Shown here: in pieces, positions 14,984 through 22,874 of the stretch
Layout: every line of letters begins with the position of its first letter
How positions within the stretch are numbered: the stretch's first letter is position 1
Origin: a virus
Strand: one strand, 5' to 3'
DNA: 26,834 bases
IMG/VR virus record: IMGVR_UViG_3300021438_000062
Span: 1-26,834 of that record
Notes under the pieces: model-generated
Told to the model about the DNA's origin: nothing
The model's database searches: none
What the model saw: only the letters and a program-made list of their open reading frames with translations
Position numbers and translations under genes: made by a program

Positions 14984-15128
14984 TGTTTTCAGACTCTGGC
15001 TTAGTGATCTGATCCTTCGCTTCTTCATTGATTGCGTTAATCAACTGAAAGACCTGTTCGTAGGGCTGCTTGCCAAGATAGCCCATGATGGCGTTGACAA
15101 GGTTTAATGAGAGAGTGATGTCGTTCAT
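14961..15128 (-). CDS. Small conserved-type phage protein preceding a spike gene
   Basis: This 55-residue protein begins MNDITLSLNLVNAIMGYLGK, continues with QPYEQVFQLINAINEEAKDQ and ends in an acidic tail. The pattern of a short amphipathic helix, LVNAI, YLG, QPY and a second helix is familiar from many small phage genes next to tail fibre genes, but it has no known function. The ATG overlaps the HNH endonuclease stop by four bases, and the end overlaps the likely spike start by 23 bases. It may help fibre assembly, which is only suggested by position. Confidence 0.7.
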   Translation of the reverse strand: MNDITLSLNLVNAIMGYLGKQPYEQVFQLINAINEEAKDQITKPESENNGTEEGP

Positions 15129-15622
15129 GCGCTAACTCCGTGGTTTGCAAATTTACCGTGATATTTTTCTCGCGCTTCATACGCTACAAGGCCAGCCAAT
15201 TCAAGATCCTTGAAATATCCAAGACTTATGCTTTTGCCGTTTTTAATCACGCGCACCAACCATGCTTTCGTCTTTTTATGCCACGAAACTCCGGGGTATC
15301 CAGATGTATTGTTTTTTAGCGCCACACGATTGCATTGATTTTCGCTTCTGTTCGCGGGACGCAAATTTTCAATTCTGTTATCTGCTCTATCCATATTGGT
15401 GTGGTCAACTTCTTTCGGCAGATAGCCATGATGCAACAGAAAAATTAACCGATGCGCTTTATGAATCTTTCCAAGCCATGTGATGTGCCTGTATCCAGTT
15501 TTATGAATTGACCCAGCAAGCGTTCCAACCAGATATTTCTTGTTGTGATATGGAGCTTTGATCCAGTAAAGGTTGCCATCTTTATACTCAAAATATTCGG
15601 AGATAAGTGCTTGAGTAATCAT
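15125..15622 (-). CDS. HNH homing-type endonuclease with AP2-like DNA-binding domain
   Basis: This 165-residue protein has an HNH_3-type nuclease region: AHRLIFLLHHGYLPKEVDHT (His57, Asp73 and His74), followed by ADNRIENLRP (Asn86) and a final SENQCN (Asn95). Residues 103-159 form an AP2-like three-stranded domain (NNTSGYPGVSWHKK, then AWLVRV, then GYFKDLELAG) that binds DNA in related mobile endonucleases. Such enzymes cut genomes lacking the gene and spread by repair. It is a free-standing gene, with no visible intron, and it overlaps both neighbours by four bases (ATGA on each side). This unusually tight fit places it inside the late operon between fibre genes. All key residues appear present, so it may be active. 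Confidence 0.92.
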   Translation of the reverse strand: MITQALISEYFEYKDGNLYWIKAPYHNKKYLVGTLAGSIHKTGYRHITWLGKIHKAHRLIFLLHHGYLPKEVDHTNMDRADNRIENLRPANRSENQCNRVALKNNTSGYPGVSWHKKTKAWLVRVIKNGKSISLGYFKDLELAGLVAYEAREKYHGKFANHGVSA

Positions 15623-21958: not shown

Positions 21959-22079
21959 AAATGGAAAGATTAAAAGGTTACTAGCCTTATAAAGTTTCCA
22001 GAGCAGAGGCCGACTCCTTGAATGGCTCTAGATACGCCGCAAAACCCAACTAAGGCCAACTTAGGTTCTGGTAGCGCAC
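21959..22079 (-). other. 121-base leader between GIY-YIG endonuclease and coat gene
   Basis: No gene is visible in this leader. On the minus strand it holds a five-pair hairpin (CTAAG with CTTAG, 22050-22064), a second possible stem (AGAGC with GCTCT, 22000-22029), and an AT-rich TTTATAAGG element (near 21985-21993) that resembles a -10 box. No good -35 box accompanies it, so a promoter is only possible. A start for coat transcription would make sense here because of the terminator after the scaffold gene. Confidence 0.3.
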
Positions 22080-22748
22080 TTATATCACTTGTCTTTTGTT
22101 TTGTAAAGCAATCCGAAATGCAGCCGCATCAAGTAGACTTTTAAAGTTTCCGTAAAAAGTTGTTTTCCCACGAAAGCATTCAACCACTTTCCAGCACTTT
22201 TGAGATTCAACCCAATTGACTCCGGCCAACCCAATTCCGCTTCCTGATTTTGGCTTTCCAACTCGCGCTAAAGATAAGTTAATTGAATGCTCTTTTGATT
22301 TTGATTTTCCTTTAGCTGCGTTGCTCATTTTGAGCCTTGTTTGTTCTGTGTTTTTACGCCCAATCCGATGCGTGTTTAATCTTTCATTGACCTGATGACC
22401 TTCTTCTGTGGAATAAAATTTTTTTAACTTAGCCGCTCTTTTGTCTTTTGTTTGTTGTGTCTGCTTAAAGCCGCTATGTCCTTCACCACCATTAGTCAAA
22501 TTAACTAAGCACACTCCGTCATGCTTAAATTGTTTGATATAAATTTTTTCTAAATCAAACGCTTGCGACTCATTAAGGCAATTTACGATATCAACAATAA
22601 TGTTATTTTTACCGTACTTTGCAACAATGTTTTTGTGCCATTGTGTGCGTTTTGAAAATTGATAAGCGCGATTGCCTGTGCCTTTACCAACATAAAAAGG
22701 CGTTCCATCAGGCTTCTTGTGAATGTAGACGTAGAACTGCTTGTGCAT
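22080..22748 (-). CDS. GIY-YIG homing endonuclease with NUMOD3 and AP2-like modules
   Basis: I chose the ATG at 22748 (222 residues) because GGTGAT precedes it and the nuclease domain starts at once; an ATG at 22772 would add eight residues. FYVYIHKKPDGTPFYVGKGT carries the GIY and YIG-type motifs (Tyr6-Tyr8, Tyr19-Val-Gly21), with Arg27 and catalytic Glu67 in LEKIYIKQF and Asn83 before TNGGEGHSG. Residues about 91-170 have NUMOD3-like DNA-binding repeats (HSGFKQTQQTKDK, RKNTEQTRLKMSNAAKGK, LARVGKPKSG). The end (about 173-212) resembles an AP2 domain (GVNW, CWKVVE, NFKSLLDAAA). It lies between scaffold and coat, a free-standing mobile gene. Base composition looks more A and T rich than its neighbours. 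Confidence 0.92.
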   Translation of the reverse strand: MHKQFYVYIHKKPDGTPFYVGKGTGNRAYQFSKRTQWHKNIVAKYGKNNIIVDIVNCLNESQAFDLEKIYIKQFKHDGVCLVNLTNGGEGHSGFKQTQQTKDKRAAKLKKFYSTEEGHQVNERLNTHRIGRKNTEQTRLKMSNAAKGKSKSKEHSINLSLARVGKPKSGSGIGLAGVNWVESQKCWKVVECFRGKTTFYGNFKSLLDAAAFRIALQNKRQVI

Positions 22749-22782
22749 AAGATCACCATCACGATAGGTCACGCATGAAGAA

Positions 22783-22832
22783 TGCGGCTGTCTGGGCGTG
22801 AATCCAGACGGAGTTTCGAACCTCCTGCCGCA
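22783..22832 (-). other. Compact, fully paired three-way-junction element
   Basis: In 50 bases an outer stem (plus-strand TGCGGC 22783-22788 with GCCGCA 22827-22832) encloses two hairpins: GTCTGG (22790-22795) with CCAGAC (22804-22809), loop 8 bases, and GGAG (22810-22813) with CTCC (22822-22825), loop TTTCGAAC. Only single bases link the stems to the outer stem, and all pairs are Watson-Crick. One loop resembles a tRNA T-loop, but there is no D arm and no anticodon arm of normal size. It lies between the scaffold terminator and the endonuclease start. It could be a folded RNA, a tRNA-derived relic, or a target-site scar of the endonuclease. Strand is assigned to match the transcript, but either strand can fold. 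Confidence 0.6.
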
Positions 22833-22847
22833 AACATATTATTACAT

Positions 22848-22874
22848 AAAAAAGGCCAAGTGATGAGCTTGGCC
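22848..22874 (-). terminator. Rho-independent terminator after the scaffold gene
   Basis: On the minus strand a seven-pair stem (GGCCAAG with CTTGGCC, 22854-22874) has a seven-base loop and is followed by TTTTTT. There is no T tract on the other side, so it acts in the late-gene direction only. A second small palindrome (GCGGAT with ATCCGC, 22892-22906) precedes it after the scaffold stop. The arrangement should limit read-through from scaffold toward the endonuclease and coat. Confidence 0.88.

Follow-up and report, generated by a model that had tools for sequence, protein, structure and literature searches.

Introduction

The 26,834-base phage contig IMGVR_UViG_3300021438_000062, analyzed here over its full length and referred to as the window, raises the question of why 50 bases lying between the terminator of a scaffold gene and an endonuclease gene (positions 22783–22832, minus strand) should form a three-way junction. 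A preliminary description of this DNA had offered three ideas, namely a regulatory RNA in the leader of the coat gene, a reduced transfer RNA (tRNA)-like fold, and the boundary of a mobile element, and regulatory RNA is the best supported of them. In our reading, the element is probably the 5′-terminal part of a portable leader that acts in cis on the mobile endonuclease gene it precedes and governs how that gene is translated. Such control has an evident use, as the amount and timing of free-standing homing endonucleases must spare the phage that carries them.

The Three-Way-Junction Fold

Read along the minus strand, the junction comprises the closing helix P1 (22832–22827 paired with 22788–22783), an unpaired A at 22826, P2 (22825–22822 with 22813–22810), P3 (22809–22804 with 22795–22790), and an unpaired A at 22789. 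The stems of six, six, and four Watson–Crick pairs are present just as the preliminary description had drawn them, with two eight-base loops. Taken singly, the sequence folds with a minimum free energy of −23.2 kcal/mol (z = −2.95), a modest signal that 2 of 200 shuffled versions equal, and it is the homologues that lend real weight to the claim of order beyond chance. Covariation was counted on 14 distinct sequences, because MAFFT had misaligned P3 in several of the members, and all three helices covary in this subset. Standard pairs fill 99% of the pair cells, 10 of the 15 pairs display two-sided change in at least one sequence, 53 cells carry double changes, and the covariation score reaches 0.708 versus 0.195 after shuffling (0 of 500 shuffles attain the observed value) and at most 0.14 in slid controls. 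Hence the pairing is kept through sequence change, which is the behavior that had been proposed as the check on this fold, and none of the outcomes that had been named as refuting it was observed.

A covariance model whose seed includes the window sequence picks out one site in the window and no more, a minus-strand match of 63 bits with an E value of about 6e-13. The same model recovers members from outside the alignment at 34–50 bits, these being L143, L118, L164, L384, L069, L182, and the second element of L105 (loci are denoted here by L numbers). Wobble pairs in the relatives L005, L131, and L382 are G-U on the minus strand only and A-C on the other; minus, on which the neighboring genes also lie, is the sense strand of the element. 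All promoter-bearing members are built as GGC-A-P2-loop2-P2′-P3-loop3-P3′-(A)-GCC, and there is hardly room for doubt that 22783–22832 is a real RNA element.

The Gene behind the Element

The minus-strand order in the contig is a portal-like gene, the scaffold gene, its terminator, the element, a GIY-YIG family endonuclease gene, the coat promoter, the coat leader, and the coat gene, with portal, scaffold, and coat named by eye from their sequences. The endonuclease gene encodes 222 amino acids (22080–22748, minus strand; the ATG at 22748 is preferred to a GTG at 22772), and its 3′ end contains the coat promoter (TTTACA, 17 bases, TATAAG; 22079–22107, minus strand), an arrangement repeated in relatives with the same layout. 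The coat gene, downstream of the endonuclease, thus has a promoter of its own and a different leader. Accordingly, the idea of a regulatory RNA in the coat leader survives in its first half but not in its second, as the element leads the endonuclease mRNA (messenger RNA) and not that of the coat.

Close relatives in IMG/VR carry the element, with clear sequence variants, directly upstream of an endonuclease, and with few exceptions the gene behind it encodes an endonuclease of the GIY-YIG or HNH type. The kinds represented are GIY-YIG with NUMOD3, AP2, or HTH parts, HNH_3, and HNH/HNH_5. Between scaffold and coat, the element is present in all 11 loci that have an endonuclease, and among the 64 loci that lack one, 59 lack the element as well, two (L127 and L138) possess it, and three hold a promoterless variant. 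This joint presence and absence means that the element and the endonuclease gene travel as a single unit, which in Proteus phage ZX7 sits between the terminase genes. The notion of a mobile-element boundary is partly right, since between terminator and coat promoter the element and the gene come and go jointly. On this view the element is part of the mobile cargo, and nothing identifies it as the recombination point. In L127 (around 4396) and L138 (around 4272), the endonuclease gene has been deleted; the junction element is left behind, as are, with the coat promoter, the final codons of that gene.

Promoter and Probable 5′ End of the Transcript

Upstream of the junction lies a −10 box, AATAAT (22838–22843, minus strand), with a TG extension at 22846–22845, which places the probable start at about G22831, and most relatives show the same spacing. 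In most of 26 members, the −10 hexamer, usually TG-extended, ends exactly five bases before the six-base-pair P1; its summed score is 292, compared with 204 in shuffles (0 of 1000). Variants without an endonuclease (L016, L018, and L055) have no −10 box at this position. Transcription would accordingly start at the first G of P1, and the junction RNA would therefore probably form the extreme 5′ end of the endonuclease mRNA.

The terminator of the scaffold gene, a hairpin with a T run at 22848–22874 (minus strand), stands directly upstream of this promoter. The element itself was considered as an intrinsic terminator and rejected, being followed by TTCTTCATGCG while the terminator is that separate hairpin. 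In a different set of loci (L294, L295, L298, L299, and L301), a TATAAT box occurs a few bases before the ATG of a GIY-YIG gene, and these may be leaderless endonuclease mRNAs that lack the element.

Loop 3 and Its Two Anti-Loops

Two repeats complementary to loop 3 (ATTCACGC, 22796–22803, minus strand) lie between the junction and the start codon, and the second usually abuts the Shine–Dalgarno sequence. In the window, anti-loop 1 (GCGTGA, 22769–22774, minus strand) is complementary to TCACGC of the loop, and anti-loop 2 (CGTGA, 22759–22763, minus strand) is complementary to TCACG and adjoins the Shine–Dalgarno-like GGTGA of the endonuclease gene (22753–22757, minus strand). The functional unit is longer than 50 bases, extending from about 22846 to 22748, with the −10 box upstream and the two anti-loop repeats downstream of the junction.

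Over 19 representatives, the best and second-best pairings of loop 3 with the downstream leader sum to 277 and 225, compared with 178 and 112 for shuffled leaders, and none of 3000 shuffles reached them (maxima 231.5 and 162). Two controls set against the same leaders, loop 2 and loop 3 in reverse complement, remained at background level, so that pairing of loop 2 with the leader was discarded as a candidate. When leaders were exchanged between members (14 representatives), the loop 3 signal was lost (0 of 2000), and the pairing is therefore specific to each member. The repeats are 8–13 bases apart in 17 of the 19 representatives, most often 9–12 and on the whole about 11, with the second usually ending 8–15 bases before the start codon. 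Individual members illustrate how loop and repeats change together: TTCACGC is matched by GCGTGA and CGTGAA in L060, TTCGTAC by GTACGG and TACGAA in L095, TAGCCCATTG by CAATGGGCTG and AATGGGC in L143, and TGAAT by ATTCA twice in L383. What is found here is thus the pseudoknot type of arrangement, a loop pairing with a downstream stretch of leader and supported in this by covariation. As anti-loops 1 and 2 are complementary to the same bases of loop 3, they would be mutually exclusive partners.

Loop 2 and Its Palindrome

Loop 2 (GTTCGAAA, 22814–22821, minus strand) consists of a six-base palindrome with a purine on each side, and its counterparts in relatives read ATTGCAAG, TTTGCAAG, AATGCATA, and CGTGCATA. 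The palindrome is perfect in GTTCGAAA, ATTGCAAG, TTTGCAAG, and AATGCATA and has G-U ends in CGTGCATA, the cores being TTCGAA, TTGCAA, ATGCAT, and, with G-U, GTGCAT. The flanking positions, 1 and 8, are not Watson–Crick complementary to each other. Two pairs of types, that of L118 and L182 and that of the window and L101, have junction helices and loops that differ only by the four-base exchange between GTTCGAAA and ATTGCAAG, through which self-complementarity is kept. Such an exchange of a central CG for GC yields no pairing within one loop, but it is compensatory for loop–loop pairing between two molecules. Self-complementarity is likewise retained through sequence change in the other loop 2 types listed, though not in the L016/L018 variant, and in this pattern the variation in loop 2 bears the signature of a kissing loop. 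Dimerization of the leader through loop 2 is a tentative proposal, to which we give somewhat less than an even chance.

The preliminary description had likened loop 2 to a T-loop, and this resemblance does not extend to the relatives, where TTCGAA is replaced by TTGCAA and ATGCAT. The latter cannot form the U54–A58 pair, and two members depart from the T-loop rule, L105 with AATGCATA and L418 with CGTGCATA. The reduced tRNA-like fold fares no better in searches, as neither ARAGORN nor Rfam returned anything.

Proposed Mechanism

We propose that transcription initiates on the first G of P1, which would put the junction at the head of the endonuclease mRNA, and that loop 3 would pair with either anti-loop 1 or anti-loop 2, never with both. 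Pairing with anti-loop 2, which touches the Shine–Dalgarno sequence, would hinder ribosome loading, and pairing with anti-loop 1 would leave the ribosome site free, giving a two-state switch. The palindromic loop 2 would let two leaders kiss, and this could bias the switch with the abundance of the mRNA during infection. That one of the anti-loops, the second, is located at the ribosome-binding site speaks for control at the level of translation. Competition between the two anti-loops seems to us an evenly balanced proposition. The most far-reaching version, a ligand-free dimerizing switch on mobile endonuclease genes, in which mRNA 5′ ends kiss, a loop chooses its anti-loop, and the output is set by the concentration of the mRNA itself, is rather doubtful. 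The layout of one loop and two anti-loops together with a palindromic loop is unusual, and we know of no regulator that combines a kissing palindromic loop with a second loop choosing between two equivalent anti-loops. As the leader travels with mutually unrelated GIY-YIG and HNH genes, it has the look of a control cassette that selfish genes can take up as it stands.

Several observations weigh against this proposal. The second anti-loop is poor in L119 and L384, and the pairing scores were computed after visual inspection of some of these very sequences had revealed the complementarity; L382–L384 and L418, found after that, mostly fit. A hairpin holding the Shine–Dalgarno sequence (CCU...AGG) is attractive and visible by eye in many members, but it is weak in tests (8 of 2000; 119 of 5000 against shuffled linkers and 1233 of 5000 against swapped linkers). 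In the window its putative, weak form would pair GGT of the Shine–Dalgarno-like GGTGA with ACC (22769–22767), with anti-loop 2 in its loop. Owing to this weakness, we can only infer the OFF state. Few distinct palindromes are known, and the L016/L018 variant, which has no endonuclease, carries a non-palindromic seven-base loop. The downstream genes are not all endonucleases either: L382 has a DNA methyltransferase (named from its DPPYGIG motif), Acinetobacter phage Acjo_20 a large primase-like protein (named from its N-terminal sequence only), and L119 and L125 a 156-amino-acid protein of no known kind. The fold and the pairings are well supported, and the regulatory output is a well-founded inference, the start site, the translation effect, and the dimer all being deduced from the sequence.

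The more serious of the rival explanations, and still an unlikely one, is that the element is an mRNA stabilizer, whose fully paired 5′ end shields the transcript from 5′-end-dependent decay while loop 3 swaps repeats as the ribosome covers one of them and thereby keeps the shield intact, with no switch involved. P1 starts right at the probable 5′ end, leaving no more than about one base unpaired, and downstream genes of different kinds would suit this function, but a simple hairpin would suffice for it, and neither the covarying palindromic loop nor a repeat at the Shine–Dalgarno sequence is required. That repeat is also unexpected if the structure, located right at the transcript start, were instead a promoter-proximal, put-like antitermination RNA, which would alter RNA polymerase and thereby carry endonuclease transcripts past terminators. 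The different genes that follow share no common terminator layout, and this second explanation appears very improbable.

Hardly more credible is a DNA-level operator, in which the repeats and an inverted copy in P3 are bound by the endonuclease or another phage protein that represses its own promoter, as I-TevI does. Three copies of the motif do occur close to the promoter, with one helical turn between the two direct ones, and autorepression by I-TevI offers a known precedent (PMC2988022). Yet the motif does not track the protein, since related GIY-YIG proteins have different motifs whereas TAGTCA or TAGTGA is common to genes of the HNH and GIY-YIG types, and helices that covary with G-U wobbles on one strand behave as RNA. 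A tRNA-like or otherwise processed small RNA, or a recombination end of a mobile element, has next to nothing to recommend it. Several relatives do have tRNA-like genes in the same interval, but the element lacks a CCA end and a D arm in addition to the ARAGORN, Rfam, and T-loop results given above, and it lies within a transcribed leader. The translational leader with two anti-loops is thus the reading we retain.

Comparison with Known Systems

In T4-type phages, RNA hairpins sequester the ribosome-binding site of homing endonuclease genes (I-TevI, I-TevII, I-TevIII, segB, and mobE of Aeh1; PMC2988022, PMC3014915). The element resembles these hairpins in being a structured RNA directly upstream of phage GIY-YIG or HNH homing endonuclease genes, judged to act in translational control, and also in that the endonuclease gene contains the promoter of the phage genes downstream (PMC2988022, PMC3014915). 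The differences are that the T4-type structures are simple hairpins that hold the ribosome-binding site and form only on long read-through transcripts, whereas the element is a three-way junction made from its own promoter, with most of the ribosome-binding site outside it. In the T4-type systems, the endonuclease's own promoter gives short transcripts without the inhibitory structure; here, the −10 box is upstream of the whole element. The seg43 gene of Aeromonas phage 25 comes closer, with a very stable hairpin just upstream of an endonuclease ribosome-binding site that is itself excluded, but this is a single hairpin and a single case, and the passage describing it reports no anti-loops (PMC2988022).

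The toxin mRNAs tisB and timP have 5′ pseudoknots with alternative states, and the timP conformations are mutually exclusive (PMC7708055, PMC11228461). In contrast to the element, both are bacterial type I toxin–antitoxin mRNAs with antisense RNAs. To our knowledge, neither has a three-way junction with a palindromic loop or two equivalent anti-loops. By analogy, the element seems to resemble the T4-type hairpins and the toxin pseudoknots in its apparent action while sharing a fold family with neither. Loop 2 has a separate parallel in the retroviral dimerization initiation site, a hairpin loop with a six-base palindrome between unpaired, mostly purine flanks, in which the palindrome varies and stays self-complementary. 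The retroviral site, however, serves dimerization of a genome, whereas loop 2 is an eight-base loop on a four-base-pair stem within a three-way junction, and its dimer is putative.

Distribution and Searches

Relatives were gathered from IMG/VR through homologues of the endonuclease and coat proteins, through pattern scans for the P2 hairpin, and through BLAST against GenBank phages. About 28 distinct sequences make up the family; they come from phage contigs of environmental origin and, in GenBank, from the phages Proteus ZX7 and Acinetobacter Acjo_20, so that cultured carriers exist. These two were the only members in the BLAST of GenBank phages with variants of the P2 hairpin; matches in Cruim01, MT838764, and Ab20 were set aside as chance. 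The ZX7 copy (L383, MZ424863, 4058–4108) is concealed by an annotation that reaches too far: the endonuclease coding sequence QXO10329 has been given a start, probably a wrong one, that precedes the element, whereas the gene is likely to begin at the ATG after the leader. The covariance model matched in all 30 records searched whole, with a second copy before another endonuclease in three.

The search with RNA family models that the preliminary description had suggested matched no known family: Rfam 15 gave nothing at the gathering score in the window and nothing up to E 5 around the element, and the best Rfam match of L143, mascRNA on the opposite strand (E 0.47), fell far under the cutoff. 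An exact-pattern scan of bacterial and archaeal genomes yielded 13 matches, of which those inspected had no promoter, anti-loops, or endonuclease; two of these, L258 and L259, score as model matches and look like chance. When run on 369 genomes belonging to a single class, the covariance model produced one match, within an aspartyl-tRNA synthetase-like gene, which was likewise dismissed as chance. Given only chance matches in these scans, the family looks restricted to phages. A scan driven by HNH proteins added no further elements in its best 80 loci. As far as Rfam and the literature searched (mostly papers open without subscription) show, this is a widespread and undescribed phage RNA family. 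Upstream of an HNH gene in L357 (about 870–1000), there is an unrelated-looking three-way fold whose 13-base-pair P1, GATTGCTTGCGCC/GGCGCAAGCAATC, encloses TGAATTAAATTTCA.

Neighboring Features of the Locus

A second endonuclease gene in the window, apparently of HNH type by eye, occupies 15125–15622 (minus strand), its start overlapping the stop of the preceding gene, and the covariance model search of the window found no junction element there. The coat gene also has a leader RNA (21960–22089, minus strand) that is conserved with or without the endonuclease (alignment A5), and for which Rfam gave no match in the window. It contains a covarying hairpin whose loop includes GCC(C/T) and a second hairpin, CAGAT..ATTCGAGGGA..GGCTCCCATCTG. 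Two copies of GGC downstream could pair with the loop, which would amount to one loop and two anti-loops, as in the element.

In L019 and L093, group I intron-like sequence was noticed by eye; it follows the opening codons of the coat gene and immediately precedes the coat match (3001) in both loci. Genes resembling tRNAs, also recognized by eye, lie between scaffold and coat in L016, L018, L024, L043, L078, L080, L092, and L095, the same interval as that of the element, which seems to be an insertion hot spot.
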